From NCBI RefSeq assembly GCF_002278925.1, contig NZ_NCJH01000008.1, forward strand, positions 62,001 to 126,000: a stretch of 64,000 bases of DNA, given 5' to 3'. The notes under the pieces were generated by a model. That model did no database searches. It had not been told where the DNA came from and was given only the letters and a program-made list of their open reading frames with translations. Source of the DNA: Polaromonas sp. 39-63-25 (GTDB lineage Bacteria; Pseudomonadota; Gammaproteobacteria; Burkholderiales; Burkholderiaceae_C). The position numbers and the translations under genes were made by a program. Shown in pieces: positions 3,781-62,970 of the stretch. Positions within the stretch are counted from its first letter, which is position 1, and the number at the start of each line of letters is the position of its first letter.

Positions 3781-3841
3781 GTGGAACTCCTTGAGTGACA
3801 AAACAGAAGACTGAAAAAGAAGCGCGAAAAATCAAAAGAGG

Positions 3842-3899: not shown

Positions 3900-3946
3900 G
3901 TCCGGTGAAGCCGTGGAAGACTTTTGAAACGGACCGTCGTTGGCCC
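3890..3946 (-). promoter_or_regulatory. Two-hairpin ANTAR (NasR-type) antiterminator RNA
   Basis: P1 (3946-3931) is GGGCC-AACGAC-GGTCC, a 5-bp stem with one G-U pair. P2 (3903-3890) is GGAC-AACGGC-GTCC. Both have six-base loops with A at position 1 and G at position 4, the rule known for RNA targets of ANTAR proteins, and both loops start AACG. P2 overlaps the 5' arm of the terminator at 3842-3899. The 27-base linker between P1 and P2 is longer than I would expect. The gene just upstream encodes a NIT-ANTAR protein, its likely ligand-responsive binder. Confidence 0.82.
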
Positions 3947-3962
3947 CTTCATGCCATCAACT

Positions 3963-3980
3963 AAGCAGTAACCGTGCCAG
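3963..3980 (-). promoter_or_regulatory. Sigma-54 promoter of nrtA
   Basis: The minus strand reads CTGGCACGGTTACTGCTT, matching the RpoN consensus with GG (3978-3977) and GC (3966-3965) separated by exactly 10 bases. Transcription should start near 3953, a few bases before hairpin P1. Confidence 0.88.
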
Positions 3981-4072
3981 ATGATTTCGATGTGGGGGGT
4001 GGGCTGGTGCTTGCCTCTGAAAAACGGCTTGGCGCGGCAGCGCCGGGAGCGCAGGACACGTTCAGCCGGGGT

Positions 4073-14808: not shown

Positions 14809-14893
14809 GCGGACGTGGTGAAATTGGTAGACACGCTATCTTGAGGGGGTAGTGGCGAAAGCTGTGCGAGTTCGAGTCTCGCCGTCCGCACCA
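14809..14893 (+). tRNA. tRNA-Leu (anticodon GAG)
   Basis: The acceptor arms GCGGACG/CGTCCGC close the molecule, the D-arm is GTGAAATTGGTAGACAC, the anticodon stem CTATC/GGTAG holds the loop TTGAGGG with anticodon GAG, there is a long class II variable arm, and the T-arm GCGAGTTCGAGTCTCGC is intact. Discriminator A and an encoded CCA complete it. It lies 96 bases before nuoA. Confidence 0.97.
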
Positions 14894-32830: not shown

Positions 32831-34615
32831 TCAGGCGTTGAACTGCAGCGCGGCCAGCCGCGCATAAATCCCGCCGCGGCTCACCAGTTCGGCGTGGGTG
32901 CCTTGCTCCACCAGCCGGCCGTGGTCCAGCACCAGGATGCGGTCGGCCTTCTGCACGGTGGCCAGGCGGTGCGCCACCACCAGCGTGGTGCGGCCCTGCA
33001 TGGCCGACTCCAGCGCCGCCTGCACCATGCGTTCGCTTTCGGCGTCGAGGGCGCTGGTGGCCTCGTCCAGCAGCAGCAGCGGCGGGTTCTTGAGCATGGC
33101 GCGGGCAATCGCGATGCGCTGGCGCTGCCCGCCCGACAGGCGCACGCCGCGTTCGCCGAGAAAGGTGTCATAAGCCTCCGGCAGCGCCATGATGAACTCA
33201 TGCGCAAAGGCCGCCTGCGCCGCCGTCCGGACCTCGTCGTCACTCGCGCCGGGCTTGCCGTACCGGATGTTCTCCAGCGCACTGGTCGAGAAAATCACCG
33301 CGTCCTGCGGCACGATGCCGATGCGTTGGCGCAGGTCGTGCAGCGCCAGGTCGCGGGTCGCCACGCCGTCAAGCTCGATGCGGCCCGTGGCCGGGTCGTA
33401 AAAACGCAGCAGCAACTGGAACACCGTGCTTTTGCCGGCGCCGCTGGGCCCCACGATGGCCACGGTTTCGCCGGACGCCACGCTCAGGGAGAAGTCGCTC
33501 AGCGCCGCCTGCGCCGGGCGCGACGGGTAGTGGAAGGTCACCGCTTCGAATTTGATAGCGCTTCCCGCCCGTACCACGGGAGCTGGCACCGGATTGGGCG
33601 GTGATGTTACGGGGGAGCGGGTTTCCAGCAGTTCCATCAAGCGTTCGGTGGCGCCGGCGGCGCGCAGCAGGTCGCCATACACCTCGCCCAGCACCGCGGT
33701 GGCGCTGGCCAGGATGATCACGTACACCACCGTCTGGCCCAGGTGGCCGGCGGTGATGTCACCGCGCATCACCGCCTGCGTGCCCTGGTACAGGCCCCAC
33801 AGCAGCGCCGCCGAGGTGGCGATGATGATGAAGGCCACCAGAACCGAGCGCGCCCGGGTGCGGCGGATGGCGGTGTTGAAGGCATTGGTGGTCGATTCGT
33901 CGAAACGTGCGGCCTCGCGCGCCTCGGCGGTGTAGCTTTGCACCACCGGGATGGCATTGAGCACCTCGGCCGCAATCGCGCTGGAGTCGGCCACCCGGTC
34001 CTGGCTGGCGCGCGAGAGCTTGCGCACGCGCCGGCCGAACCATGCCGAGGGCACGACGATCAGCACCAGCCCGCCCAGCACCTGCACCATCAGGTAGGGG
34101 TTGGTCACCACCAGCATGCCCAGCGCACCGATACCCATCACGGCGTTGCGCAGGCCCATGCTGAGCGACGAGCCCACCACGGTCTGCACCAGCGTCGTGT
34201 CGCCGGTCAGGCGCGAGAGCACCTCGCCGGTCTGGGTGGTTTCAAAAAACTCCGGGCTTTGCCGCACCACGTGCGAATACACCGCGTTGCGCAGGTCGGC
34301 CGTCACGCGCTCGCCGAGCCAGCTGACCATGTAAAAGCGGCCGGCTGAAAACAGGCCCAGCGCTGCCGCCACCGCAAACAGCTCGAAGAAGTGGGTGCGC
34401 AGCGCCATCAGCTGCGCCCCCTTGTCGCCCGCTCCCAGCCCGCCGTCGATCAGGCCGCGCAGCGCCAGCGGAAACACCAGCGTGGCTACCGCCGCCATCA
34501 CCAGAAAGAAGATGGCCAGTCCGATGCGGCCGCGGTACGGACGCAGGAAGGGCACGAGGCCCGAGAGGGAGCGCGGCGATCCCTTGGGCGCGTCGGAGGG
34601 AGAGGAAGTGGCCAT
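32831..34615 (-). CDS. ABC exporter, fused membrane and ATPase domains
   Basis: MsbA/type IV exporter half-transporter, 594 residues, acting as a homodimer. The six-helix membrane domain spans about 28-320; the ATPase has Walker A GPSGAGKST (about 385-393), the signature LSGGQRQR, Walker B LLLLDEATSALD and the H-loop AHRLAT. The substrate (lipid, drug or peptide) is unknown. The linker between the domains (PNPVPAPVVRAGSAIKFE) is encoded by a copy of the dispersed repeat at 33549-33590. Confidence 0.92.
   Translation of the reverse strand: MATSSPSDAPKGSPRSLSGLVPFLRPYRGRIGLAIFFLVMAAVATLVFPLALRGLIDGGLGAGDKGAQLMALRTHFFELFAVAAALGLFSAGRFYMVSWLGERVTADLRNAVYSHVVRQSPEFFETTQTGEVLSRLTGDTTLVQTVVGSSLSMGLRNAVMGIGALGMLVVTNPYLMVQVLGGLVLIVVPSAWFGRRVRKLSRASQDRVADSSAIAAEVLNAIPVVQSYTAEAREAARFDESTTNAFNTAIRRTRARSVLVAFIIIATSAALLWGLYQGTQAVMRGDITAGHLGQTVVYVIILASATAVLGEVYGDLLRAAGATERLMELLETRSPVTSPPNPVPAPVVRAGSAIKFEAVTFHYPSRPAQAALSDFSLSVASGETVAIVGPSGAGKSTVFQLLLRFYDPATGRIELDGVATRDLALHDLRQRIGIVPQDAVIFSTSALENIRYGKPGASDDEVRTAAQAAFAHEFIMALPEAYDTFLGERGVRLSGGQRQRIAIARAMLKNPPLLLLDEATSALDAESERMVQAALESAMQGRTTLVVAHRLATVQKADRILVLDHGRLVEQGTHAELVSRGGIYARLAALQFNA
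33549..33590 (+). repeat. Dispersed repeat family A, copy 4 (inside ABC exporter)
   Basis: TTTGATAGC-GCTTCCCGCCCGTACCACGGGAGCTGG matches the copy in nrtB (TTTGATAGCTG..CGCCCATACCACGGGC) over most of its length. It is read in the opposite sense by the exporter gene and lies exactly in the variable linker between the membrane and ATPase domains. Confidence 0.65.
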
Positions 34616-34810
34616 GAGGGGAGTTTAGTCGGCACGGCCGGGCGGGCTCGGGCGAGAAAGCCGGATGGCCTTTTGGCGGCTTGTCATAGATCAAGCACGC
34701 TGCCGGGGGGCAGCCCACAATCAACACTGCAGTGATCACCGCGCGTTGCGCTCGGGTTGTCAGGCTGCAGGGGGCGGCACCGTGCCGCGCAACACATAAA
34801 GGATAAACAC

Positions 34811-35560
34811 ATGCTGAAAAACAAGGTAGCCTTGGTCACCGGCGCGTCGTCAGGTATTGGCCGCGCCATTGCGCTGGTCTGGGCGCGCGAGGGCGCCCGG
34901 GTGGTGGTGTCTGACATCAACGAACAGGCCGGTGAGGAAACGGCCTCGCTGGTACGGGCCCTGGGCGGCGACGCCATGTTTGTGGCGGCCGACGTAGGCA
35001 AACCGCAGGACGGCGAGGCGCTGGTGGCGCGCACCCTGGCGCTGCACGGCCGGCTCGACATCGCCTGCAACAACGCCGGCATAGGCGGCCCGCAAGCCCC
35101 CACGGCTGATTACCCGCTGGACGGCTGGGCGCAGGTCATCAACATCAACCTGTCGGGTGTGTTTTATGGCATGAAGTACCAGATTGCCGCCATGCTCAAA
35201 AGCGGCGGTGGCTCCATCATCAACGTCGCCTCCATCCTCGGCAACGTCGGTTTTGCCGGCGCCCCGGCCTATACCGCCGCCAAACACGGCGTGGTCGGGC
35301 TGACGAAAGCGGCCGCGCTCGAATACAGCGCACACGGCGTGCGTGTCAACGCCGTCGGACCGGGCTTCATCCACACCCCCATGATCAGCGGCCTCGAAGA
35401 AGACCCCGCCATCAACGCCATGCTGGTCGGTGCCCATCCAATAGGTCGTCTCGGCCGCGCCGAAGAAGTGGCCGAGCTGGTGGTCTGGCTGTCCTCGGAC
35501 AAGGCTTCTTTTGTGACCGGGTCCTATTACCCGGTGGACGGTGGTTACCTGGCGCGTTGA
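34811..35560 (+). CDS. Short-chain dehydrogenase/reductase
   Basis: Classical SDR of 249 residues. TGASSGIGRA (about 10-19) binds the dinucleotide, ACNNAGIGG follows, the catalytic serine is in NVASILGN and the tyrosine-lysine pair in AYTAAKHG. An aspartate after the second strand (VVSDINE) favours NAD over NADP. ATG 34811 follows AAAGGATAAACAC. Substrate unknown. It is convergent with the hydrolase at 35601, with an ACCGGAA/TTCCGGT stem in the 40-base gap. Confidence 0.92.
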   Translation: MLKNKVALVTGASSGIGRAIALVWAREGARVVVSDINEQAGEETASLVRALGGDAMFVAADVGKPQDGEALVARTLALHGRLDIACNNAGIGGPQAPTADYPLDGWAQVININLSGVFYGMKYQIAAMLKSGGGSIINVASILGNVGFAGAPAYTAAKHGVVGLTKAAALEYSAHGVRVNAVGPGFIHTPMISGLEEDPAINAMLVGAHPIGRLGRAEEVAELVVWLSSDKASFVTGSYYPVDGGYLAR

Positions 35561-35600
35561 GCGGCCAGCCAGTGATCCGGACCGGAAACCTTCCGGTGGA

Positions 35601-36674
35601 TTACCTGTAGATCGACGGGCCCGCAGCCACGGATTCCGTGCCTGCATTCATGAGTTTCCCGTCATCTCCGGAGGGAAGTGATTCAGCCTTCACAGGGCGG
35701 GTGGCTTGCCACCCGTCATTCTTGGTGTGCTTGATGAAAAATGACACCATGCGCTCCCGGCTGTCTTCTGCGGCGACTTTGTTGAGGCCCACGAGATTGC
35801 CCAGATAGCGCTGAGGCACGATATCGAGATCAAACGAGTGAGCCGCCTCGGGGTAAATCTTGATGTCCAGCTCCGCCCCGGCTGAACGAACACCCTGGCA
35901 TTCCTGGGTCGGTGTCCAGCTGTCCTGCCCGCCACCAAATACCAGCAAGGGTGACGCCAGATTCACCCTGCGATTGCCGAATGAGCCACACCACGGGTAA
36001 TAGGCCACCACGGCGCGATAACCACCTTCCCCGGCGGTTTTTCCATGTGGCGCATCACCCTTGGCGACATTGATGGCGACACTCCCGCCATTGCTCTGTC
36101 CCATCAGAAAGATGCTGCTGGTATTCACAAACGTCCGGGTTTTCAGGTAGTTCAATGCGTCGTAGGCATCGTGGGTACGGTAGTCAAGCGCATCGACCTG
36201 CTGGGGGACACTTTCGCAAACCTTGCCGCCACCGTTGTTCCGGGGACCAAAGCTGTCGAGGGCAAGAACGACAAATCCCTTGCCAACCAGATAGTCCGCA
36301 TAGCCATTCATGGTGTAGCGCACCGCCGGTTGCCAGCCGCCGCAGCCATGCATGAGAACCACGGCCGGGAAGGGGCCATTTCCGGGGGGCTTCGATATGT
36401 CGGCCCTCAGGGTCACATGCGCCGACGTGTAGGCACGACTGGCCTGGAAATGCACTTTGTCGCCGGCATGAGCGGCGGCTACAAACATCGACGGCAAACA
36501 CCACAAAGCAATGTAAGCCGACCGCCTGCGGTCGGTCCGCCTCTCGACGAATGGCCTCCCCGGAGCCGACGCAGGGCTCCCGGATTTCCTTCGTTGACTT
36601 TTCCGTCTCTCGAAAACAGGCGCCACCTGGACGCCCGCCATGGACCATCCGGTTTTGTACAAAGGCTGATTCAT
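35601..36674 (-). CDS. Dienelactone-hydrolase-like alpha/beta hydrolase
   Basis: Predicted secreted or membrane-anchored alpha/beta hydrolase of 357 residues. After a basic Arg-rich region (ERRKSQRRKS and ERRTDRRRS, residues 22-54) comes a hydrophobic segment and AAAHAGDK, resembling a signal or anchor unusually far into the protein. The hydrolase core has the oxyanion motif LMHGCGGWQ, the nucleophile in GQSNGGS, then a likely acid (GGGQDSW) and histidine (AAHSFDL). The start at 36674 is the first ATG with a GAGGG stretch upstream; a GTG at 36767 would extend it. It is divergent from the PqqD-like cluster. Confidence 0.8.
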   Translation of the reverse strand: MNQPLYKTGWSMAGVQVAPVFERRKSQRRKSGSPASAPGRPFVERRTDRRRSAYIALWCLPSMFVAAAHAGDKVHFQASRAYTSAHVTLRADISKPPGNGPFPAVVLMHGCGGWQPAVRYTMNGYADYLVGKGFVVLALDSFGPRNNGGGKVCESVPQQVDALDYRTHDAYDALNYLKTRTFVNTSSIFLMGQSNGGSVAINVAKGDAPHGKTAGEGGYRAVVAYYPWCGSFGNRRVNLASPLLVFGGGQDSWTPTQECQGVRSAGAELDIKIYPEAAHSFDLDIVPQRYLGNLVGLNKVAAEDSRERMVSFFIKHTKNDGWQATRPVKAESLPSGDDGKLMNAGTESVAAGPSIYR

Positions 36675-37038
36675 CGTCCCGATTCCCTCGAGGTCATGTG
36701 ATGGCTGAATGCTTGGCGGGGCGCTGTCCTTGCCATCCCGCCAATATCTTGATTCTCTCCCTTTCACTGCCAGCCTTCAAGCTGTGGCTGATTTGACCGA
36801 ATGCAAGCCGTCGTCGAGGCTGCTTGCCTGCACCCGGTGGCCCGGATGACGCAGGCCGGCCCTGGCCCTGCAGTCAGCTTCCACCGGCGGACCTGCATGA
36901 CCTACATCAACACCCTCCACACGTCAGACGTTTAACCTTCTTCCTACAGTTTGTTACTTCTAGTAGCAGTTCGCGGTATCTGCAGCTGTCCCTCGGCATT
37001 TACGGATAACACAAACGAAATAAGGGGCGAGACACAAC
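36675..37038. other. Divergent intergenic region before the PqqD-like cluster
   Basis: This 364-base stretch separates the hydrolase from the PqqD-like gene. I see one short open frame (36801-36935, listed separately) and a TA-rich zone around 36940-37015 that probably holds the cluster promoter, but no confident -35/-10 pair. No repeat of either dispersed family is present. Confidence 0.5.
36801..36935 (+). CDS. Possible 44-residue peptide (uncertain)
   Basis: An open frame from ATG 36801 to TAA 36933-36935 codes for 44 residues beginning MQAVVEAACLHPVARMTQ and ending INTLHTSDV, with two cysteines and three histidines. It lies 103 bases before the PqqD-like gene, where a substrate peptide gene could sit. 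There is no convincing Shine-Dalgarno, and such a frame can arise by chance in this GC-rich DNA. Confidence 0.2.
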   Translation: MQAVVEAACLHPVARMTQAGPGPAVSFHRRTCMTYINTLHTSDV

Positions 37039-37341
37039 ATGCCTGAGAAAAAGAAGGAAGCAGCCAGGACGGGCGCATCGCGACGGGCTGGCACTTTGCG
37101 TTTTTACGATGGTTCGTTCGTTCTGAACACAAGCTCCGGCATGTTTTATCGACTGAGCCCGGCAGCAGACTACCTGCTTCGTGCGCTTGAAGCCGGGGCG
37201 AAAACAGGTCAATTTGCGGATCTGATCGCAACCCGTTATGGGGTCGATCACGTAACTGCGGTTCGCGATACCGAACTCTTGTTGAACCAGTTCACAGCGC
37301 TGGGGCTTCTCGACAACTTCCAGACGAAGCGAGCCCCATGA
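37039..37341 (+). CDS. PqqD-like peptide-binding (RRE-type) protein
   Basis: A 100-residue protein whose residues 18-92 match the PqqD/RiPP-recognition winged-helix pattern: GSFVLNTSSGMFYRLSPAAD, then LLRALEAGA, FADLIATRYGVD, and AVRDTELLLNQFTALGLL. Free-standing PqqD-type proteins bind a substrate peptide and present it to modifying enzymes. A Lys/Arg-rich N-terminus precedes the domain. No PqqA, radical-SAM PqqE or other pqq genes are nearby, so PQQ synthesis is unlikely. It overlaps the ATP-grasp gene by four bases, indicating coupled expression. Confidence 0.82.
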   Translation: MPEKKKEAARTGASRRAGTLRFYDGSFVLNTSSGMFYRLSPAADYLLRALEAGAKTGQFADLIATRYGVDHVTAVRDTELLLNQFTALGLLDNFQTKRAP

Positions 37342-38426
37342 AAAGACAGATGAAAGCCGTCGCGGTCACCGGCCTGCACCGCGGCGAAAACCCCCAGCCT
37401 GGTCCGGCAGTCATCGCCAGCTTGCGCCGGCGCTTCCCGGACCTGCGCATTATTGGTTTGTCCTATGACCCCATGGAGAGCAGCCTGTATGGGCAAGGGG
37501 CCGATCATCCGGATGCGGCCTACCTGATTCCATTTCCGGGTGCCGGAGCGACTGCGCTTCTGGAGCGCCTGGACATGATTCGCGAGAAGGAGGATCTTGG
37601 ATTTGTCATCCCCTGTCTCGATTCAGAGCTGGAAAATTACATGGCCATTCATCCCCAGCTGCTGGAACGGGGAATTGGCTGCATTCTTCCCACGCCGAAT
37701 TCGTTCAAGGCGCGGGGAAAAGCGGATCTGTACGATTTTTGCCGGCGCATCGGTGTGCCCGTGCCCGTGACGAAACTGGCGAACAACCCGGCTGCCGTTG
37801 AAAGATGCGCTCAGGAGATCGGCTATCCGGTCTACGTCAAGGGCAGGCTCTATAACGCGAATCTCGCCAGGTCGCGGGCAGACCTGGCGCAGGCCTACGA
37901 CGAAATTGTCAAGGTGTGGGGCTGGCCGCTGATGGTTCAGGAACTGCTCTCCGGCGAGGAGTACGACGTTGCCGGCGTCGGTGATGGCAAGGGACGCATT
38001 GTAAAAAGCTGCACCATCCGGAAGCTGCTCCGGACATCGCACGGCAAGGGATTCGCCGGGATTGTGGTGGAGGACCCCGAGATTGATCATCTTTCGCAAC
38101 GCATCATCCATGAGCTGCGCTGGGATGGCCCGTTCGAGCTGGAGTTTCTCAAAGCCCCCGGCAAGCCCCACGCACTGATGGAAATCAATCCGCGTTTCCC
38201 GGCGTGGATTGATTTCCCGTCTCAAATAGGTTGCAACCTTCCAGCATTGCTTCTTGACCGGCTCCTTGACCAGGAACCGCAGCCGCTGAGAACCTGCGCC
38301 GCCGGCCAGATGTTTGTTCGCCACTGCGTCGATCTCGTGGGCGAGTTTTCCAGTTTTGCCGACATGGCCAGTAGCGGCGAGCGCATTTTCAAACCCCGTT
38401 CAGCCCCCATAGAGAGCACTTCATGA
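37338..38426 (+). CDS. ATP-grasp ligase of unknown specificity
   Basis: A 362-residue ATP-grasp enzyme of the carbamoyl-phosphate-synthase/PylC-like class, forming an amide or ester bond via an acyl-phosphate. The N-terminal 110 residues are a pre-ATP-grasp Rossmann-like domain. The grasp core has GYPVYVKGRLYNANLARS with the ATP lysine, MVQELLSGEEYDVAG, and the metal-binding FELEFLKAPG and LMEINPRFPAW with acidic and Asn ligands. It overlaps both neighbours by four bases. The acceptor could be the PqqD-bound peptide or the product of the downstream PLP enzyme. Confidence 0.85.
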   Translation: MKRQMKAVAVTGLHRGENPQPGPAVIASLRRRFPDLRIIGLSYDPMESSLYGQGADHPDAAYLIPFPGAGATALLERLDMIREKEDLGFVIPCLDSELENYMAIHPQLLERGIGCILPTPNSFKARGKADLYDFCRRIGVPVPVTKLANNPAAVERCAQEIGYPVYVKGRLYNANLARSRADLAQAYDEIVKVWGWPLMVQELLSGEEYDVAGVGDGKGRIVKSCTIRKLLRTSHGKGFAGIVVEDPEIDHLSQRIIHELRWDGPFELEFLKAPGKPHALMEINPRFPAWIDFPSQIGCNLPALLLDRLLDQEPQPLRTCAAGQMFVRHCVDLVGEFSSFADMASSGERIFKPRSAPIESTS

Positions 38427-39856
38427 ACCGCGACTATTTACCGCCAAGCATTGGCCCCGAACTCGGACGCCAGGCCCTTGATGCAGCTGCCGACCGCAAC
38501 CTGTACGCACGCGGTACGCGCGCACCGACCTTGTTCGAGATAGACGGCATTCCTGTGGCGTCGCTCGTTGAACAATTCGGATCACCACTGTTTGTTTTCT
38601 CCGAGCATGGTTTGCGCGAGAAAGCTCGACGCATGCGCGAGGCCTTCAGAAGCCGTTATGAGGACACAAACTTTGCATGGTCGTACAAGACCAATTACCT
38701 CAACGCGGTTTGCCAGGTATTTCATCAGGAAGGCTGGACGGCTGAAGTTGTTTCAGACTTCGAATATGAGAAGGCCCGCAAACTGGGCATCCCGGGCAAG
38801 GACATTATTTTCAATGGTCCCTACAAGTCGCGGAGCATTCTTGAGCTTGCAATCAGCGAAGGTGCACTGATCCAGATCGACAACTGGGATGAGCTCGGGG
38901 TCATCGAAGAACTCACCCGGCATCTCAGGAAGCCGCTCGACATCGGCATACGCGTCTGGCTTGATGCGGGCATCAGGCCGGTCTGGTCGAAGTTCGGTTT
39001 TGCCATCGAAAACGGCGAGGCCGGACGTGCTGCAGAGAGGATCCTGAAAAACCCCCATCTGAGGCTGCATACCTTTCATACGCATATCGGAACCTACATT
39101 CTGGATCCCAACGCATACCGTGTTGCGGCCACGAAACTTGTCGCCTTGCGCGAGCAGATTTTTGTCGAGCACCAGCACCTGGTCCCCTGTCTCAATCTGG
39201 GCGGTGGCTTTCCATCCCAAAGTCTGCTGCATGGCATGGAAGGTCCGGCCGAGCGGGTGATTCCCCCCATTGAAGCGTACGCCGATGCGATCACCGAGGT
39301 CCTGAATCGTTTGCCGGCGAAAAAACGGCCCCAACTGCGCTTTGAGAGCGGGCGTCATCTTGTCGACAACGCCGGCTATCTGTTGAGCTCGGTGGTCGCC
39401 ATCAAGGGGGTTCGGGACCCGTTGGCCGTCAGCTCGGACCTGACCGGACGCGATTACAAGGAGCAGACGCTCCTGGGCGAAGACGCACTGGCAAGTTATG
39501 TTCTTGATGCGGGGATCAACCTTCTCTACACGGCAGCCTGGTACCAGATCGACGCACTCCCGTCCCGATCAATCAACGCGCCACTTTCCACGGCGCGGCT
39601 TTATGGCCCGCTTTGCATGGCGATCGACGTCGTTCGCTACCGCATCGATCTTCCCCCTCTCAACGTTGGCGAGGTGGTCACGCTGTATCCGGTCGGTGCC
39701 TATAACCTGGCCCAGTCCATGCAGTTCATTTCCTACAGACCCGCCGTGGTCATGATTGGGGCGAACGGGAAGCCGGAGATCATTCGTACGCGTGAGGTGC
39801 TCGACGATGTCCAGCGACCGGAGCGGCTGCCTGCCCATCTGGACAAGAAGCCTTGA
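38423..39856 (+). CDS. Diaminopimelate/ornithine decarboxylase-like PLP enzyme (fold III)
   Basis: A 477-residue alanine-racemase-fold decarboxylase. The PLP lysine is in SYKTNYLNAV, the histidine region in HTHIGTYI, the phosphate-binding loop in LGGGFPSQ, ESGRHLVDNAGYLL supplies family residues, and the dimer-partner cysteine is in YGPLCMAIDV. LysA itself has a CESxD-type motif here; this protein has CMAID, so its substrate probably differs from meso-diaminopimelate. A roughly 50-residue N-terminal extension precedes the barrel. It overlaps the genes on both sides by four bases. Confidence 0.85.
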   Translation: MNRDYLPPSIGPELGRQALDAAADRNLYARGTRAPTLFEIDGIPVASLVEQFGSPLFVFSEHGLREKARRMREAFRSRYEDTNFAWSYKTNYLNAVCQVFHQEGWTAEVVSDFEYEKARKLGIPGKDIIFNGPYKSRSILELAISEGALIQIDNWDELGVIEELTRHLRKPLDIGIRVWLDAGIRPVWSKFGFAIENGEAGRAAERILKNPHLRLHTFHTHIGTYILDPNAYRVAATKLVALREQIFVEHQHLVPCLNLGGGFPSQSLLHGMEGPAERVIPPIEAYADAITEVLNRLPAKKRPQLRFESGRHLVDNAGYLLSSVVAIKGVRDPLAVSSDLTGRDYKEQTLLGEDALASYVLDAGINLLYTAAWYQIDALPSRSINAPLSTARLYGPLCMAIDVVRYRIDLPPLNVGEVVTLYPVGAYNLAQSMQFISYRPAVVMIGANGKPEIIRTREVLDDVQRPERLPAHLDKKP

Positions 39857-42075
39857 TGCTCACAGAAGCCCGCTCCACACATGAGCCTGCACCGGCGGCG
39901 GTCGGGGTACACCCTCGCCGCACGCCAGGCCCCGTGCGCAGAAAACTGGACGCGTGGCTTTCTCCTGCAGGGCTTGCGCTGGGGGGGGTGTTGTTCATTC
40001 CCCATCCCCTGCTTGGTGTTTTTTTGTGGCTGGCCCTCGCGCTCAACCCTCCCTATGTCGTGTTCGCCCTTTTGGGGCTGGTCATTGGTGCTTCGATCAA
40101 GCGCCTGCTCCGCATCAGTGATGGACCGATCCTGGGCGGCGGGCTGAAGGCCAATGCCTTGCTGGCCGCTGTCGTGACGGGGTGGATGACCAGCGGGCTG
40201 GGGCTGGCCTGGACCCCCCGGCTGGCGATGGCGGGCGCAGCAGCCATCGCGGCAACCCTCGTGTCGGCCACATTGATGCGCGCTTTCTCCAGAAGCATTT
40301 TCCCGCCGCTGCTCTGGGGGTATTGCCTCGTGGCGGTCATGCTGTTCAGTGTCTGCCCGCAGTGCACGGTGATTTCGGCGAACGCCATGCAACCCTGGCC
40401 TGCGCCCGTTGACGCCCTGGGCTGGGTGGAGAGCTTTCTGCGGTCGATGGGGTCGCTGATGTACCTGCCTGACGCCAGGGTCGGTCTGCTGGTTTGCGTG
40501 GGCGTGTTGTGCTGGTCCCGGACGATGTTCCTCAACGGCATCGTTGGCTGGATAAGTGGCGTATGCGTGGCGCTCGCTTTCCAGGAGATGTATCTGGTTT
40601 ATTACTGGCTGCCCGTGTCGTACAACTATTTCATCGCGGGCATGGCGCTGGGCGCAGTGATCTTCCTGCCGGGCAGGTTGACCCTGCTGGTGGCGGCCGT
40701 TGGCGGGTGCGCTGCTTCATTCTTTGCGCTGGTGCTGCAGTACACGACAAACTGGTCGGCGATTGCCTACCTGCCGATTTCTTCGGGTGTGGCGATCTGG
40801 GTCGGTATAGGTGCATTCACCCGGGATCGGTCCATCGGACTGAGAAATCTCATGTCGGAGATCACGCCCGAGGAGAAGTGGTGGCGGGTGGCGTATTGGT
40901 ACAAGCGGTTCGGGCCGTATTACCCCCTCTTTGCCGTACCAGTGGAGGGTGACCTGAAAATTTCGCAGGGCTTCGATGGCAAGCTCAGCCACATGGGTGT
41001 GTTTTGCCATGCGCTGGATTTCCAGCGCCCCGTGGCCTCCGGATCCATCTGGGGAGCCCGTGTCATCTCGCCGGTTTCAGGCATCGTCGAGCGCATCAAA
41101 AACTCGGTCCCGGACAACGCGCTGGGCGTGTGCAATTACGCCGAGAGATGGGGCAACCACGTTGTCATCCGCCTTGATCGCGGTGGCTGTGCTCTGCTGG
41201 CTCATTTGCAGCAAGGAACGGTGTCAGTCGTACCGGGCACGCGCGTGGAAACCGGAAGTTATATCGGGCTGGTCGGCAACTCCGGGCGCTCGCCGGTTCC
41301 GCATCTGCACCTGCAACACCAGGACGCGCCTGAGCCCGGTTCGCCAACAACGCCATTCCGGCTGGCCAATTTCCTGTCCGGTAACCAGACCGAAAGCGCT
41401 TCGTGGTCATGGAACGCCGCGGCTGTCCCGGGGGAGGGCGATGTCGTGATGGCGGCACCATCGAACAGGGTGGTCTATCAGGCACTGGCGGGCATGGTTC
41501 CGGGATCCGCGGTTTGGGTTGTGGAAGCCCGCGGGCATATTCCACGGGGATTTCGACAGCATTCTTCGGCCGGGACCTTGCGGGTTGACACTCATCTGGA
41601 CGAACTGGGACAGCATGTTTTCAGGGCGGGGGAAAACGGCAGTCTGGTCTCCAGGCTCGATCCCGACGCCTGGCGCCTCGTTGAGCTCAGGCAGGTGACG
41701 TCGCCCTTTCTCAAGTTGCTCGCGCTTGCTGTGCCATCCATCCCGTATGCGGCCAGGCCTGGCATGGCCTGGAGCGATTTTCCGCCCATGATGCCGCCTG
41801 GTGGGCTGTTCGGCCCGCTGGTGCTGGCGCTGGCTCCCTACTTCAAACGCCAGTTTCTGAAAGTGTCCTGCGGATGCATGCCGACGCCTGCGGAAGCCGG
41901 CCATTCATTCCAGATCGACAGCCATGTGCAGACGCGCTCGCCGTCCTTGCCGCTCACGGTGTCCTGTGACTTTGCCATGCTGCGTGGCCCCGTCAGGGTG
42001 CAGGCCGATTTCCAGGGCGGGACGCTGGTTTACACCTTGCTGTCGTACGAGCCGCGCGACCTGGCGAAGGAGTGA
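39853..42075 (+). CDS. Urea-transporter-like membrane protein fused to M23 peptidase domain
   Basis: A 740-residue fusion. Residues about 35-330 carry around ten hydrophobic segments in the duplicated pattern of the urea transporter (UT-B) family. From about 365 comes a periplasmic or cytoplasmic M23/LytM-like domain: ISQGFDGKLSHMGVFCHALDF with His and Asp ligands, SPVSGIVERI, and VPHLHLQHQD with the HxH pair. A further 240 residues of beta-rich sequence follow. The fusion could couple a channel for a small solute to cleavage or binding of a peptide. It overlaps the decarboxylase gene by four bases. Confidence 0.8.
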   Translation: MMLTEARSTHEPAPAAVGVHPRRTPGPVRRKLDAWLSPAGLALGGVLFIPHPLLGVFLWLALALNPPYVVFALLGLVIGASIKRLLRISDGPILGGGLKANALLAAVVTGWMTSGLGLAWTPRLAMAGAAAIAATLVSATLMRAFSRSIFPPLLWGYCLVAVMLFSVCPQCTVISANAMQPWPAPVDALGWVESFLRSMGSLMYLPDARVGLLVCVGVLCWSRTMFLNGIVGWISGVCVALAFQEMYLVYYWLPVSYNYFIAGMALGAVIFLPGRLTLLVAAVGGCAASFFALVLQYTTNWSAIAYLPISSGVAIWVGIGAFTRDRSIGLRNLMSEITPEEKWWRVAYWYKRFGPYYPLFAVPVEGDLKISQGFDGKLSHMGVFCHALDFQRPVASGSIWGARVISPVSGIVERIKNSVPDNALGVCNYAERWGNHVVIRLDRGGCALLAHLQQGTVSVVPGTRVETGSYIGLVGNSGRSPVPHLHLQHQDAPEPGSPTTPFRLANFLSGNQTESASWSWNAAAVPGEGDVVMAAPSNRVVYQALAGMVPGSAVWVVEARGHIPRGFRQHSSAGTLRVDTHLDELGQHVFRAGENGSLVSRLDPDAWRLVELRQVTSPFLKLLALAVPSIPYAARPGMAWSDFPPMMPPGGLFGPLVLALAPYFKRQFLKVSCGCMPTPAEAGHSFQIDSHVQTRSPSLPLTVSCDFAMLRGPVRVQADFQGGTLVYTLLSYEPRDLAKE

Positions 42076-42171
42076 TGCCATGGCCCAAGCCTGACCTGCC
42101 CCGCAGTCTTTGTTCTGACTGCGCTTGCTGGCCACCTGTTTTTTTTGTTTGCCGTCTATCTTTTAAGGAGT

Positions 42172-43794
42172 ATGAAAATGCTGAAATTTGAAAAAAATCG
42201 TCTGTTGCCTCTGGCCGCACTGGCTTTGCCCCTGCTGCTGGCTGGATGCGCGGGTAACGTCCTGCGGGTTGCGCCCCACGCTGAACTCAAGGTCGTCGAT
42301 CCCGTCTGGACGACGGCGTACATCACGCGCAATCACGGGTACCTGGTTTATGACACCTTGTTTGCGATGGATGAAAACTTCGAGCCGAAACCGCAGATGG
42401 TCGACACGTGGACGATGTCTGCGGACAAGAAGGTCTGGACATTCAGGCTGCGTGACGGTCTGAAATGGCATGACGGAAAAGACGTCACTGCTGCCGATTG
42501 TGTTGCATCGCTTCAGCGTTGGAGCAAGCGCGACGGCGTGGGCCAGCAGATGTTCAGTGATGTCGAGAGCCTGACAGCCCTGGATGCCAGGACGATCAGC
42601 CTGAAGTTGCGTGTTCCCAATGGGAACGTGCTTGAGACGCTGGCCAAAATGTCGTCCAACGTGCCGTTCATGATGCCCGAGCGGGTTGCCCAGGCCGATC
42701 CTTCCCAGCCCATTCAGGATACCACCGGCTCGGGTCCCTTCATCTTCAAAAAGGAAGACTGGGTGCCGGGCAAAAAGGCGGTCTACATCAAGAACCGCAA
42801 TTATGTGGCGCGCGTCGAGCCGCTGTCGATGGCCGCTGGCGGCAAGGTCCCCCAGGCAGACATGATTGAGTGGCGCTATTTCCCGGACCAGGCCTCAATG
42901 GCCCAGGCGTTGATCGACGGAACAGTCGACTATGTTGAATCTCCGTCGAACAAACTTGTTCCCACGCTCGAAGGCAAAAAGGATGTGGTTGTTGCGTCCA
43001 CCGATCCGCTCGGGAATATCGGAATGGCCCGGTTCAATACGCTGTTGCCACCGTTTGACAATGTGGAGGTGCGGCGTGCTGCGGCGATGGCGATGCAGCA
43101 GGAAGACTACATGAGCGCAGCACTTGGGGATCCGAAATACTGGCGCACCTGTTACTCGGTGTTTCCCTGCGGCACGGCCTATTCCAACAACGCTGCCAGC
43201 GACGTCATGAAATCAACCAGCCTTGACGCCGCCCGGAAAGCGCTGCAGGCGGCGAAGTATGACGGTACGCCGGTCGTTATCCTCAATCCGGTGGACAGCC
43301 CCGTCATATCGGCTTTTACCAAGGTGACCGCCGAGAAATTGCGCCTGATTGGCATGAAGGTTGACGTTCAGGACATGGATTGGGCAACACTGACTCAGCG
43401 ACGTGCCAATCGCGGCTCGGCCAAGGACGGTGGCTGGAGCATGTTTCACACCTGGTGGCTGGCCGGTGATGTCATGGACCCTGGTTTTATCGCCTTCTCC
43501 GGGGACCGTGAAAACGGCTGGTTCGGCTGGCCGCAGGACGCGGAACTCGAGAAATATCGCCTGGCCTTCAAACAGGCCGCCACTCTGGATGAAAAGAAGG
43601 TGCTTGCTGCCAAAGTACAGCAGCGGCTCATCGAGATCGGCGCCTTTGGCATCCTCGGGCAGTTCTTCGAGCCGGTTGCCTTCAGCAGCCATGTCACCGG
43701 TATCACATCGCCTATCCAGTTCTACTGGAACATGTCGGTCGAGCTGCCTTGGTGGAAGCGCATGCTGCGCCAGGTCGGCAAAAGCTGGATGTAA
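42172..43794 (+). CDS. Oligopeptide-type extracellular solute-binding lipoprotein (SBP family 5)
   Basis: A 540-residue ABC-type binding protein of the DppA/OppA family. The lipobox LLLAGC gives a lipid-anchored mature protein from about residue 25. Family landmarks are LVYDTLFAMDENFEPKPQM, WTFRLRDGLKWHDGKDVTA and YFPDQASMAQALIDGTVDY. The start at 42172 follows TTTTAAGGAG. It is 96 bases after the transporter/peptidase gene and probably in the same unit. No permease or ATPase genes accompany it, so it may serve as a peptide-capture component for a shared importer or for the upstream system. Confidence 0.88.
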   Translation: MKMLKFEKNRLLPLAALALPLLLAGCAGNVLRVAPHAELKVVDPVWTTAYITRNHGYLVYDTLFAMDENFEPKPQMVDTWTMSADKKVWTFRLRDGLKWHDGKDVTAADCVASLQRWSKRDGVGQQMFSDVESLTALDARTISLKLRVPNGNVLETLAKMSSNVPFMMPERVAQADPSQPIQDTTGSGPFIFKKEDWVPGKKAVYIKNRNYVARVEPLSMAAGGKVPQADMIEWRYFPDQASMAQALIDGTVDYVESPSNKLVPTLEGKKDVVVASTDPLGNIGMARFNTLLPPFDNVEVRRAAAMAMQQEDYMSAALGDPKYWRTCYSVFPCGTAYSNNAASDVMKSTSLDAARKALQAAKYDGTPVVILNPVDSPVISAFTKVTAEKLRLIGMKVDVQDMDWATLTQRRANRGSAKDGGWSMFHTWWLAGDVMDPGFIAFSGDRENGWFGWPQDAELEKYRLAFKQAATLDEKKVLAAKVQQRLIEIGAFGILGQFFEPVAFSSHVTGITSPIQFYWNMSVELPWWKRMLRQVGKSWM

Positions 43795-43896
43795 GCGTCA
43801 TGGGGGTCCATTGGCACCGAGGTGTCGATGGGCCTCCTGGCAGGCCTTGGCGGACCCGGCCGGTGCCGCGATGGCTCACCTGAATATGTGGACTTG

Positions 43897-43984
43897 AGCA
43901 GCTATTTATTTGATAGCTGCTTGCGCTTGTTGGTCAAGGGCTGAAGGCCTGAAAGGCTTGCAAACCCGGCGTGATGCCGGGTTT
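43897..43984 (+). repeat. Dispersed repeat family A, copy 5, with adjoining hairpin
   Basis: AGCTATTTATTTGATAGCTGCTTGCGC, then CAAGGGCTGAAGGCCTGAAAG, is the fullest form of the repeat. It is followed by AAACCCGGC-GTGAT-GCCGGGTTT (43962-43984), a strong 9-bp hairpin. It lies between the convergent SBP and yihY genes and may terminate both. Confidence 0.8.
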
Positions 43985-44010
43985 GCCCTGCACAAGGCAG
44001 GCGGGGCCGG

Positions 44011-44856
44011 CTATGCGCGCGACAGCCGCCGCGCCGGCTGCGCCCCGCCCCGCGGCAGGTTGGCGCTGACCAGCGCTGCGGCCAGCGTGACGAGCCACGA
44101 GTAATACACCCACACCAGGAAAGCCAGCAAAGGCGCGAAGGCGCCGTAGATCGTGCGGTACGTGGGCACGTTGGCGAGGTAAATCGCGAAGCCGTGTTTG
44201 CCCAGCTCAAACGCGATGCCGGCGAGCAGGCCGCCCGCGATCGCATCGCGCCACCGAACAATGGTGTGCGGCACGAAGCGGAACAGACAGGCGAAGCCGG
44301 CGACGCTCAGGACCACGGGCCCGAGGTTCAGGGCATGCGGCAGCCAGGCGGGGCGCGTTCCCACCAGTCCGCTGGAGGCAGCCAGAAGATAGGACGCGGC
44401 CCACAGGCTCGCACCGATGATCACCGGGCCGGTGAGCAGCATGGCCACGTACAGGGCCAGCCGTCGCAGCACGGTGCGCGGCTTCTTCACCCGCCAGATC
44501 CGGTTGAGCGTGTTCTCCACGCTCAGTAGCAGCGTAAGGGCCGACACCAGCAGGACTGCGAAGCCCACCTGCGTGAGGCCGCTGGCGTTGCCCGCGAATT
44601 GCGCCAGGTGTTTCAGCACCGTCCTGGCGATGTCGGCCGGCAGCAGGCCGCGCAGCAGGTGCTCGCGAATCGCTTCCCCGGCCGCGCGCAGGGCCGGGAT
44701 GCGCGCGAACAGGGCAAAACTCACCGCCAGCAGCGGCACCATGGACACCGCCATCGTGAAGGTCAGGCCGCCCGCCGCCTGGGCGAGGCGTTCCTCCCGG
44801 CCGCGCCGGAGGATGCGGGTGATCAGGTTGCCCTGGTTTCGGCTTGCAGTGGTCAT
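44011..44856 (-). CDS. YihY/BrkB family inner-membrane protein (UPF0761)
   Basis: A 281-residue protein with about six membrane segments. GGLTFTMAVSMVPLLAVSFALF, the RVKKPRTVLRR loop, RWRDAIAGGLLAGIAFELGK and YGAFAPLLAFLVWVYYSW are family features. The function is not established; it was once called RNase BN by mistake and resembles BrkB. The start at 44856 fits the family; the frame continues open upstream without homology. It ends in a basic tail. Confidence 0.9.
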   Translation of the reverse strand: MTTASRNQGNLITRILRRGREERLAQAAGGLTFTMAVSMVPLLAVSFALFARIPALRAAGEAIREHLLRGLLPADIARTVLKHLAQFAGNASGLTQVGFAVLLVSALTLLLSVENTLNRIWRVKKPRTVLRRLALYVAMLLTGPVIIGASLWAASYLLAASSGLVGTRPAWLPHALNLGPVVLSVAGFACLFRFVPHTIVRWRDAIAGGLLAGIAFELGKHGFAIYLANVPTYRTIYGAFAPLLAFLVWVYYSWLVTLAAALVSANLPRGGAQPARRLSRA

Positions 44857-45035
44857 GGCAGCAATATAGCCACGTCCTTGCAGTTTCTGGCCCGGCGTTG
44901 GGGAAATGTGGAAGCTTGCTTGCTCAAACGCGGCATCCGCGCGACAAAGCCCGCCCGGCGATGACACTGCCCGGCGCGGTGGGCAGCCCGATCCTGATGC
45001 GATCCTGATGCGGCAGGTGGTACGCTGGCTGGAGC

Positions 45036-46535
45036 ATGAACACCCCGGGAACATCGCAAAACGGCAGCCCTTCAGCCCGCAACTGGCTCGTTGTGGTGTT
45101 GCTGCTGGCGGCAGCCACAGCGGTCGGGCTGGTGCTGGACAGTTACGTGACGCTGACCAGCCTGGCCATGGTGTATGTGCTGGCGGTGGTGATTGCGGCC
45201 TACCGGCTGGGCTGGATCGAATCGACGGTGTGCGCGGTGGGGGCGGTCACGGCGCTGAATTTCTTTTTTGTTCCGCCGCGCTGGACCTTCGAGGTTGACC
45301 ACCGGGAGAACCTGATTGCGCTGGCCACCATGCTGGTGCTTGCCCTGGTCATCAGCCGGCTGGCCACGGGTCTGCGCCGCGAGACAGGGCTCGCCCGCCT
45401 CAACGAGCGGCGCGCGCGCCAGTTGCAGGCCCTGGCCACGGCGCTTGCCAGTGCCAACTCCCGGGAAGAAGTGCTGACGGTGGGCCGGACGACCCTGAAC
45501 GCCGCCTTTGCCGGCCCCTGTTTTCTGGTGCTCACAACTGCCGGCAACGAGCTGGAACACGCCGACGGGCTGGATGCTTCCGTGCGCGATGGCATGCGGC
45601 AATGCATGGCCGATGCGGCGCTGCTGGGGCCGGGCACCGGGCGCTGGCCGGGGCTGAATGCCTGGTACCTGCCTCTGGGCGAAAAAGGCCGTGTGACAGG
45701 GGCCGCCTGTGTGCAGCCGGCCCTGGCCAGGGACGAAGACGGCCGCCAGCATGCGCAGGCGCTGTGTTCGCTGCTGGCGCAGGCGGTGTGGCGCCTGCGC
45801 CTGACCGCGTCCATGCTGGCCGCGCAAGGCGAGGCGCAGCAGCAGCAATTGCAGAGCACATTTCTGGCGGCGATATCGCACGACTTGCGCACGCCGCTGG
45901 CCGCGATTGTGGGTGCCGCCTCCTCATTGCAGACGCAGCGCGACAAGCTCAGCCCGGCCGAGCAGGACCGCCTGCTGGGCAGCATTGCCGGCGAGGCCGC
46001 CTACCTGTCCGCGGTGACCGAGAACACCCTGCAACTCGTGCGCCTGAGCAGTTCGGCGCAGGAACTCCGGCGCGACTGGGAGTCCATGGAGGAAATTGTC
46101 GGCGCGGTGCTGGCGCGGGTGCGCCAGCGCGACCCGGGCCGCCGCATCCGGTCCCGGGTGCCCGAAGGGCTGCCGCTGGTCAAGGCCGATCCGGTGCTGC
46201 TTGCGCAGCTGCTCGGCAACCTGCTCGACAACGCCCTCAAGTACAGCGAGGGTGCGATTGACCTGACGGTGGGCGTCGAGGGCGGGGAACTCGTGGTCTC
46301 GGTCAAGGACCGCGGTGATGGCATTCCCGATGCCGCGCAGGCCAGCATTTTTGAACCCTATGTCCGGGGCGACCAGGTGGGCCCGCGTGGCGCCGGGCTG
46401 GGCCTCGCGGTGTGCCGCGCGATTGCCCAGGCGCATGGGGGGCGCCTGACGCTCAGGCGCCGCCAGGGCGGTGGCAGCTGCTTCTCCCTGGCCCTGCCGA
46501 TCGAGGTGCAGCCGTCGCGGGGAGAAGGGCCATGA
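45036..46535 (+). CDS. KdpD-like sensor kinase lacking the N-terminal KdpD/USP domains
   Basis: A 499-residue membrane histidine kinase. Residues 17-110 form the four-helix DUF4118 membrane block of KdpD, about 125-250 a GAF-like region, then the H-box SHDLRTPLAAI (H282), N-box LLDNALKYSEGA, G1 DRGDGIP and G2 GAGLGLAV. The roughly 400-residue cytoplasmic N-terminal sensor of E. coli KdpD is absent. It lies 83 bases before the KdpE-like regulator and upstream of kup, so potassium or turgor control of Kup is a reasonable inference. The only upstream purine stretch is GGAG directly before the ATG. Confidence 0.88.
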   Translation: MNTPGTSQNGSPSARNWLVVVLLLAAATAVGLVLDSYVTLTSLAMVYVLAVVIAAYRLGWIESTVCAVGAVTALNFFFVPPRWTFEVDHRENLIALATMLVLALVISRLATGLRRETGLARLNERRARQLQALATALASANSREEVLTVGRTTLNAAFAGPCFLVLTTAGNELEHADGLDASVRDGMRQCMADAALLGPGTGRWPGLNAWYLPLGEKGRVTGAACVQPALARDEDGRQHAQALCSLLAQAVWRLRLTASMLAAQGEAQQQQLQSTFLAAISHDLRTPLAAIVGAASSLQTQRDKLSPAEQDRLLGSIAGEAAYLSAVTENTLQLVRLSSSAQELRRDWESMEEIVGAVLARVRQRDPGRRIRSRVPEGLPLVKADPVLLAQLLGNLLDNALKYSEGAIDLTVGVEGGELVVSVKDRGDGIPDAAQASIFEPYVRGDQVGPRGAGLGLAVCRAIAQAHGGRLTLRRRQGGGSCFSLALPIEVQPSRGEGP

Positions 46536-46567
46536 GCGCAGCGCAGAACCGCTTCAAGCCAGCGAAC

Positions 46568-46615
46568 ACCCCCTCGGGGGGCAGCGAGGACACGCCGTGC
46601 CGAGCGCGGGGGCTG
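46568..46615. repeat. Dispersed repeat family B, copy 3 (diverged)
   Basis: CCCCCTCGGGGGGCAGCGAGGA, then CACGCCGTGCCGAGCGCGGGGGC, fills the gap between the kinase and its regulator and ends three bases before the regulator start codon. The GC hairpin sits where the ribosome-binding site should be. Confidence 0.6.
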
Positions 46616-46617
46616 CC

Positions 46618-47304
46618 ATGACGCTTCGTGTGCTGGTGGTCGAGGACCACCGTGAAATACGCGCGCTGATGCAATCGTCGTTGTCGGTGGAGGGCTTCGA
46701 GGTGCAGACCGCCGTGTCACTGAGCGAAGCAGGGGCCATGCTGCGCCACCACCCGCCCGACGTGATCGTGCTGGACCTGGGCCTTCCCGACGGCGACGGG
46801 GTCGAGCTGGTGCGTGAGGTGCGCAGGCACAAGGCCATTCCCATCATCGTGGTGTCGGCGCGCCACCAGGAGGCGCAGAAGATCCTGTTGCTCGATGCCG
46901 GCGCCGATGACTACCTGACCAAGCCCTTCAGCGTCGGCGAACTGCTGGCGCGCATCCGGGTGGCGCTGCGGCATCGCGGCACGGCGCTGGCCGCCGCGGT
47001 GACCGAACATGTGCTGGACGACCTGCACATCGACCTGCAGTCGCATGTGGTGCTGCGCGACGGCCAGCCCGTGCACCTGACGCCGACCGAATACAAGTTG
47101 CTGGCGCGGCTGGTGCGCAGCGCCGGCCGGGTGGTCACCCACCGGCAGTTGCTGGCCGATGTCTGGGGGCCCGAGTTCACCGAGCACACGCACTATCTGC
47201 GGCTCTACATGGGTCAGCTTCGGGCCAAGATAGAGCGTGACTCGGCCGAGCCGCGCCATCTGCTGACTGAAACCGGGGTGGGTTACCGCCTGGCGACCGC
47301 TTGA
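46618..47304 (+). CDS. KdpE-like response regulator (OmpR/PhoB class)
   Basis: A 228-residue two-domain regulator. The receiver has VEDH, the phospho-acceptor in VLDLGLPDGD (D53) and TKPFS; the C-terminal winged helix (about 130-225) has LTPTEYKLLARLVRSAGRVV and the HTHYLRLYMGQLRAKIERD recognition region characteristic of KdpE. It is encoded between the KdpD-like kinase and kup, with no kdpFABC genes visible, so kup is the likely target. No Shine-Dalgarno is visible because the family B repeat abuts the start. Confidence 0.9.
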   Translation: MTLRVLVVEDHREIRALMQSSLSVEGFEVQTAVSLSEAGAMLRHHPPDVIVLDLGLPDGDGVELVREVRRHKAIPIIVVSARHQEAQKILLLDAGADDYLTKPFSVGELLARIRVALRHRGTALAAAVTEHVLDDLHIDLQSHVVLRDGQPVHLTPTEYKLLARLVRSAGRVVTHRQLLADVWGPEFTEHTHYLRLYMGQLRAKIERDSAEPRHLLTETGVGYRLATA

Positions 47305-61179: not shown

Positions 61180-61356
61180 GGGGTTTCCTCGTGAAGTTTT
61201 ATGGGATGGACCCGCCTTGTCACCCAAGATCTGTGCCAGATCATTTCTTCAATGAAATCAAGGAGTTACCGAGAAGTTGCAGGAGTCAGTTGTCGGCATC
61301 CACAGACAACATTTCCGGCTAGGTAAAAAAAGGCCAGCAAAATCAGGGGTTCCGCT

Positions 61357-61376
61357 TGTCGGTGAAAACCGACAAC
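61357..61376. other. Perfect 8-bp hairpin between globin and regulator genes
   Basis: TTGTCGGT-GAAA-ACCGACAA lies about 30 bases downstream of the regulator gene on its strand, followed further on by GGCCTTTTTTT. It may be part of its terminator, or an operator for the globin gene. No other structure is clear in the 226-base gap. Confidence 0.45.
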
Positions 61377-61405
61377 GCAACACCAGAGCGTGGCCGGTGC
61401 CCGGT

Positions 61406-62752
<1,347 letters not shown>

Positions 62753-62970
62753 GGTTGCCCGTCCGGTTCAGCACTTGCCGCTGCAGGTGGCGGTGGCGCG
62801 GCTGTGGTCCGGAGAATTCTATAAGCAAAAACACCGGCGCCAGGCCAAAGCGGCAGCCACCGGCCAGCCCGCTTTTGATTGACCGATCTCATGGGCATCG
62901 CAGAGAATGCGCGCAGCACAGCCCGCTTCCGGGGCCTGCCGCGCAGACTCAACACTCTTCAACTGACCGC

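Follow-up and report, generated by a model that had tools for sequence, protein, structure and literature searches.

A cross-phylum bacterial operon with a PqqD-like protein, an ATP-grasp ligase and a decarboxylase bearing a leader-like N-terminal tag

Gene content and extent of the locus

A 64,000-bp stretch of Polaromonas sp. 39-63-25 (contig NZ_NCJH01000008.1, positions 62,001 to 126,000; the whole stretch is called the window here, and positions are counted from its first base) contains four consecutive genes for a free-standing PqqD-like protein, an ATP-grasp ligase, a fold-III pyridoxal 5′-phosphate (PLP) decarboxylase, and a fusion of a urea transporter (UT)-fold membrane domain with an M23 metallopeptidase (Table 1). 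This core is a real operon that is conserved across phyla and apparently undescribed. Its decarboxylase carries an N-terminal tag resembling the leader motif of ribosomally synthesized and post-translationally modified peptides (RiPPs), and the PqqD-like protein belongs to the RiPP recognition elements (RREs); RiPP-style recognition may therefore be used here on an enzyme and not on a precursor peptide.

Table 1. Positions of the genes and sequence features at the locus, with the evidence for each
Feature	Position in window	Strand	Evidence or remark
Alpha/beta-hydrolase, dienelactone-hydrolase family	35601..36674	-	PF01738 1.1e-16
PqqD-like free-standing RRE	37039..37341	+	PF05402 32.4 bits, cut-off 23.4
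ATP-grasp ligase, CPSase-like / ATPgrasp_Ter group	37338..38426	+	PF15632 40.6 bits, cut-off 29.1
Fold-III PLP decarboxylase with leader-like N-terminal tag	38423..39856	+	PF02784 1.4e-26
Tag motif YxxPxI, residues 5-10 (Y-L-P-P-S-I)	38435..38452	+	RRE recognition-like
Second tag block, residues 24-31 (D-R-N-L-Y-A-R-G)	38492..38515	+	Counterpart of GxxNKFG
UT-fold membrane domain, M23 metallopeptidase and C-terminal beta-rich region	39856..42075	+	PF03253 1.5e-21; PF01551 4.1e-11
Substrate-binding protein family 5 lipoprotein, accessory, proteobacterial clade	42172..43794	+	SBP_bac_5 1.5e-66
Inserted six-gene island	35561..43900		15 bp in relative G004

An earlier note on this DNA had named the four core genes together with a following substrate-binding protein (SBP), and all five were found in place with Pfam matches to the expected families. 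The tight coupling that it described is likewise supported. Of the four-base overlaps reported between consecutive core genes, those of PqqD with ATP-grasp and of ATP-grasp with the decarboxylase are present (ATGA each), but the decarboxylase and UT-M23 genes overlap by a single base from the ATG at 39856 and by four only from a TTG at 39853. The gap of 96 bases before the SBP gene holds for a start at 42172; a start at 42178, which is better spaced from a GGAG sequence, leaves 102 bases.

The extent of the unit, previously set at 36675-43794, was too small, and the divergent hydrolase gene, whose product begins with a basic tail followed by a hydrophobic stretch, also belongs to it. The six genes (alpha/beta-hydrolase, PqqD, ATP-grasp, decarboxylase, UT-M23, and SBP) make up an island of 8,340 bp, and blastn comparison with the relative G004 found 15 bp at the same site. 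The upstream flank (33001-35560) matches positions 385-2943 of G004 contig C66 at 93.8% identity and the downstream flank (43901-44964) matches positions 2959-4022 at 92.0%; the G+C content of the island is 59.5%, compared to 63.8% and 66.0% in the flanks. In G004, a short-chain dehydrogenase gene (97% identity) adjoins a BrkB-family gene (92%), the two being the upstream and downstream neighbors of the island in the window. This empty-site comparison concerns the one relative, G004; no other BrkB match exceeded 44% identity. An ATP-grasp search at E 1e-20 in 101 genomes (the window's own and 100 relatives) matched only the window's own gene, and a search for flanking repeats or att sites of the island returned only weak, chance-like repeats.

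A tree built from 60 decarboxylases places the window as the partner of L030, a locus from a Rhodoferax bin, in a supported group that contains Pseudomonadota and Verrucomicrobiota. Relatives of the hydrolase also occur in the loci closest to the window (L030, L031, L032, and L037, the last being a stretch that stops inside the decarboxylase), which, together with the empty site in G004, makes the hydrolase part of the unit. The SBP had been counted among the cluster's members, but matches to it (tblastn, E 1e-8, 80 loci) are confined to L030, L031, and L032, which removes it from the core. The orientation of the hydrolase and SBP genes is not constant; their presence in the nearest loci indicates that both are part of the system as this clade carries it.

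Conservation of the four-gene core

A decarboxylase alignment was scanned against 84,980 species genomes, and the best 80 of at least 580 related stretches were kept. Together with 13 stretches from genomes of the same class and the window itself, these gave 94 loci, which were scored with family hidden Markov models: the decarboxylase was matched in 94, ATP-grasp in 93, PqqD in 86, UT-M23 in 88, a tetratricopeptide repeat (TPR) protein in 62, and an outer-membrane barrel in 38. Removal of three duplicates left 91 loci, with 90 different decarboxylases under a 95% rule, since those of L079 and L080 are identical.

The order PqqD, ATP-grasp, decarboxylase, UT-M23 recurs among the 91 loci, and 76 of the 80 scan loci are labeled with one of 18 named phyla, so that at least 18 phyla are represented; single phylum labels may be wrong, because many loci are metagenome bins. 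Genes scattered over genomes and lost independently would have spoken against the earlier note; instead, one gene order is shared across many phyla. ATP-grasp adjoins the decarboxylase in all 87 loci with enough flanking sequence. Immediately upstream, a strict distance rule places PqqD in 75 of 80, and four more that are off by less than 40 bases bring the count to 79 of 80. UT-M23 lies directly downstream in 79 of 86 loci, some of these genes being partial at contig ends and that of L029 being a 306-residue match only; it is upstream within the cluster in L045 and L047, on the other strand in L049, and was not found in L052, L065, L075, and L094. Long flanks are available for 48 loci, of which 36 encode the TPR protein and 21 the barrel.

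Searched apart, the decarboxylase (E 1e-50) and the ATP-grasp profile (E 1e-40) matched the identical 13 of 369 class genomes, in searches that scored only the top few candidates per genome. Chance agreement of random sets would have a probability of 10^-23.5, a figure that ignores kinship; an order-level repeat of the test covered only two genomes. The two-domain UT-M23 protein was found in 16 of the 369 genomes, namely 12 of the 13 plus G279, G333, G350, and G429. Decarboxylase fragments stand at the contig end in G279 and G429, the G333 contig begins at UT-M23, and the stretch read beside UT-M23 in G350 contains no decarboxylase. The adjacency counts and the identical genome sets show that the core genes are grouped beyond chance.

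Mobile elements were also searched. Plasmid records gave no UT-M23 match, 13 decarboxylase matches at 25.7-29.1% identity, and ATP-grasp matches in 20 records at less than 60% identity. Phage records gave seven matches, of which the five listed are at 25.8-26.7% identity.

No described pathway with this gene set was found in the open-licence papers searched, in agreement with the earlier note. A four-gene core that extends from Aquificota to Verrucomicrobiota, with no function or product found described, marks a substantial gap in what is known of bacterial metabolism.

Several further observations concern individual loci. The bins L079 and L080 with identical decarboxylases are labeled Mariprofundaceae and Sulfurimonas, and the identity probably reflects misbinning of one of them or a recent transfer. 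Genome G321 contains two copies of the whole cluster, L017 and L022, each of which adjoins a gene pair of the BLAST-linked family F6; this family also includes the window genes at 45036-47304 and probably comprises generic two-component genes. Genome G465 has a second PqqD and ATP-grasp pair at a contig end (L146:7917-9401), possibly a diverged sister pathway.

The decarboxylase tag and the PqqD-like protein

The motif [YWF]xxPx[ILMVF] occurs in all 91 decarboxylases, with Tyr in 70, Trp in 20, and Phe in one, and with Pro in 91 of 91; the narrower form [YW]xxPx[ILMVF] occurs in 90 of 91 cellular copies. In 90 of 91 it lies 40-48 residues before a conserved GSP, which is replaced by KSP in L053; that sequence was scored within its first 90 residues. 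The consensus of the tag, Y-E-K-P-x-I-x-K-x-x-x-G-x-M-N-K-F-G, comprises two blocks. When scoring was restricted to the first 70 residues, the motif was found in 88 of 94 decarboxylases compared to 27 of 1282 other mechanically called open reading frames of at least 150 residues, and in two of 93 ATP-grasps, none of 86 PqqDs, and five of 88 UT-M23s; shuffled N-termini gave 3.8%. None of 30 LysA controls (from 29 class genomes and the window's own genome) had it, either within the first 70 residues or ahead of the GTP/GSP-like site. In all six frames of the 94 loci, the full two-block tag was found 59 times in decarboxylases and not once elsewhere. The predicted structure of the decarboxylase has a mean predicted local distance difference test score (pLDDT) of 89.7, with 369 of 477 residues at 90 or above and a weak stretch near residues 331-350. 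Residues 1-30 score 57, 45, and 49 per successive ten, and the tag is disordered in this prediction.

The solved structures closest to the PqqD family profile are TbiB1 (5v1u, 3.8e-14) and TfuB1 (6jx3, 3.4e-12), both lasso-peptide RREs. Like the RRE of a lasso-type RiPP pathway, the protein matches PF05402 above the cut-off; its score for the HPr-rel-A PqqD family TIGR04353 is 19.3 bits, below the cut-off of 35. The motif [Y/W]xxPx[L/V/I/F/A] is described as the one recognized by discrete lasso RREs, and YxxP is given as essential to complex formation in one such system (PMC13381572). W/Y/LxxP/L/I is presented as common to the FusE, McjB, PqqD, and StsC RREs (PMC12710340). The present system thus resembles lasso and PqqD-type systems (TbiB1, TfuB1, PqqD, LPP) in its RRE and in the motif, but differs from them in that the motif is borne by an enzyme of approximately 440-500 residues.

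The earlier note had cast the PqqD-like protein as the holder of a peptide, either ribosomal or murein-derived. That role is kept as a proposal, but the decarboxylase's own tag is the more likely ligand than a murein peptide or a separate precursor, because the full pattern was found only in decarboxylases. On these sequence grounds, the tag probably docks to PqqD.

A separate precursor peptide was also considered and set aside, as the full tag was not found outside decarboxylases in six frames of the 94 loci; a precursor with another motif, or one encoded elsewhere in the genome, is possible. The argument made earlier against a pyrroloquinoline quinone (PQQ) pathway agrees with the single PF05402 match in the genome, that of the cluster's PqqD. 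The six genes of the island include none of PqqA, PqqB, PqqC, and PqqE (the genome was not searched for each), and neither a lasso cyclase nor a leader peptidase (no search was made elsewhere).

In L017 (10640-11410), L018 (6787-7608), L022, L023, and L089, PqqD forms the C-terminal part of a protein of 255-273 residues, the N-terminal part of which (approximately 190 residues) matched no Pfam family in the two that were scanned, L017 and L018.

Enzyme chemistry, envelope proteins and competing models

The decarboxylase residues K89, H221, E308, R311, C398, and Y427 are present in 60 of 60 aligned sequences, as expected of a fold-III PLP enzyme. Fold and catalytic residues are common to this family and LysA, but the Arg and Glu that bind diaminopimelate (DAP) in LysA are replaced: the residue beside the catalytic Cys is M399 in 60 of 60 (Glu in 30 of 30 LysA proteins), and that in the specificity helix is T370 in 57 of 60 (Arg in 30 of 30), while the LysA model gives 188 of the 297.9 bits required. 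A LysA stand-in was rejected in view of these changed specificity residues and of the genome's own LysA elsewhere (L110, 515.5 bits). The nearest solved relative is FigC/FslC (333 bits), followed by DAP decarboxylase (250) and BtrK (167-169), and the FslC model gives 193.5 bits where 500 are needed. As counted on the alignment, M399 and T370 correspond to M355 and T327 of FigC, residues that are described as sitting in a pocket fitted to N-citrylornithine, in a tree-based account in which FigC, SbnH, AcsE, MccE, and BtrK group with DAP decarboxylase and not with ornithine decarboxylase (PMC7857480). The substrates listed for this group amount to conjugated amino acids (PMC8503589). Since Met and Thr, as in FigC, replace the Glu and Arg of LysA, the decarboxylase probably acts on a conjugate. 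The PLP enzyme may thus be concerned with an amine, as was proposed at the outset, but probably by decarboxylating an amino acid already conjugated by the ligase and not by supplying a free amine.

In the ATP-grasp family, K128, K168, K229, K237, E269, E282, N284, and R286 are invariant and E208 is conserved in at least 90% of 37 aligned rows; these conserved residues are presumably catalytic. Ligation by ATP-grasp followed by decarboxylation is the best-supported chemistry, because of the FigC-like Met and Thr, the conjugate-acting relatives, and the conserved ATP-grasp residues, and the balance tips slightly in its favor. Two known pathways are comparable. In rhizoferrin biosynthesis by FigA/FigC (FslA/FslC), an ATP-dependent synthetase likewise makes an amino acid amide conjugate that is then decarboxylated, but ATP-grasp here takes the place of the NRPS-independent siderophore (NIS) synthetase, and the RRE, tag, and UT-M23 are added. 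In butirosin biosynthesis, BtrJ, an ATP-grasp enzyme, is similarly paired with the fold-III decarboxylase BtrK; in contrast, no acyl carrier protein is among the six island genes, and an RRE is present instead. Each of the known pathways considered departs from the system in a defining feature; the system's parts belong to known families.

The UT domain aligns over its whole length with solved urea channels (dvUT 3k3f, E about 1e-52), so that the UT fold is supported by sequence profile, and the model of the protein (pLDDT 89.9) has a helical part with a layout that fits this fold, then the M23 domain, and then the beta-rich region. Unlike urea transporters, however, the UT is fused here to M23 and the beta-rich region. 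The UT filter motif PF is kept in most of 63 rows; the window has GY and SS, and the usual motif is lost in the window, L030, and L031 and partly kept in L032, which makes a urea channel unlikely in the first three. The M23 residues H380, D389, H451, H484, and H486 (zinc ligands and base) are present in 63 of 63 sequences. Net charge is positive before the first and after the last helix and negative in the middle loop, with other loops mixed, and a PExN-like motif after the last UT helix falls within the UT homology. Given the orientation of UT proteins in solved structures, the UT homology and, weakly, the loop charges suggest that both ends of the protein lie in the cytoplasm, which would put the M23 domain on the cytoplasmic side. 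The proposal that the UT-M23 and SBP proteins move and trim a product across the inner membrane is therefore doubtful, as M23 is likely cytoplasmic and the filter motif is lost in the window. In other lineages, a TPR protein that begins with a signal-like segment is encoded alongside, as is a barrel of approximately 300 residues whose last residue is F or W in 32 of 38 cases.

The proposed mechanism combines these elements. PqqD would bind the decarboxylase tag in trans, keeping the decarboxylase and ATP-grasp together; ATP-grasp would activate a carboxylate and join it by an amide bond to an amino acid side chain; and the decarboxylase would then remove the alpha-carboxylate, as FigC does on N-citrylornithine, to yield an amide-linked amine. 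UT-M23 may act on the product, or on a conjugate of it, at the inner membrane. Outside, the product would be handled by envelope partners, which in many lineages are the TPR protein and the outer-membrane barrel; the window's clade has the SBP and alpha/beta-hydrolase in this role. The whole model, an operon with an enzyme-borne RRE tag in which docking accompanies ligation and decarboxylation, is assigned a probability of about 0.5; its two parts, docking and conjugate chemistry, are not independent.

Several points weigh against this model. The loci were fetched by decarboxylase similarity, favoring relatives of the window's enzyme. In L066 the tag is present and PqqD was not found. A 65.7-kb contig filed as viral (IMGVR_UViG_3300047160_011268, L163:3444-5922) encodes PqqD, ATP-grasp, and decarboxylase, with no UT-M23 and no YxxP in the decarboxylase. 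Of a shorter form of the motif, the six frames of the 94 loci contain 66 instances inside decarboxylases and 40 outside them. Residue differences were seen between PqqDs that accompany Y-type and W-type tags, but they are confounded by descent, because tag types follow clades. Finally, R387 of the deep FigC pocket, the proposed citrate binder, corresponds to Gln in 59 of 60 aligned sequences, so that the conjugate partner is not simply citrate.

Three other readings were weighed. An ordinary metabolite pathway of ligase and decarboxylase, following rhizoferrin or butirosin logic, with tag and PqqD merely assisting folding or assembly, draws on the kinship with FigC and BtrK, on the conserved ATP-grasp and PLP residues, and on a weak likeness of the SBP to the metallophore-binding CntA model (49 bits of 800 needed). 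However, it leaves the near-invariant RRE motif unexplained, and the island's six genes include neither an NIS synthetase nor a carrier protein. Nor did five regions upstream of the clade's clusters contain a Fur-like box (best 9-12 of 19 positions matched), a result on which a Fur-regulated siderophore cluster was rejected. Such a pathway is rather unlikely. Less likely still is a self-carrier, in which PqqD would present GxxNKFG, ATP-grasp would ligate an amino acid to it (at the Lys of NKFG), and the decarboxylase would process its own tethered arm. The two-block tag does resemble a leader plus core, an NK-type second block is present in 71 of 91 decarboxylases, and BtrK, a relative acting on carrier-bound Glu, is a family match, but the Lys is missing by regular expression in the other 20, including the window and L030-L037. 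Were this reading true, at least 18 phyla would share a previously unrecognized type of carrier-dependent biosynthesis, with the tagged enzyme as its "precursor". An envelope system in which peptidoglycan is cleaved by M23 and murein or a surface polymer is modified with an amine made by the enzymes would suit the intact M23 site and the TPR and barrel partners, but it is improbable, as the UT homology and charged N- and C-terminal flanks point to a cytoplasmic M23 (the loop charges are not clear-cut).

If the tag does dock to PqqD, as the favored model holds, RREs steer ordinary enzymes too. Genome mining that looks for an RRE with a short peptide would then miss systems of this kind, and enzyme-borne YxxP tags could be used as a search signal. 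With so few genes in the core, its product is within reach of expression in Escherichia coli.

An anti-phage defense island was considered as well and discarded, as PADLOC matched none of the six proteins at E 0.01. Elsewhere in the window, the only structured RNA at Rfam gathering scores is a tRNA at 14809-14890, and a large open reading frame at 61277-62824 has no Pfam match. The window also encodes the ethanolamine ammonia-lyase large subunit EutB (55989-57377, + strand) and a protein with a Tle1-like phospholipase effector domain of the type VI secretion system (PF09994; 59119-60552, - strand).

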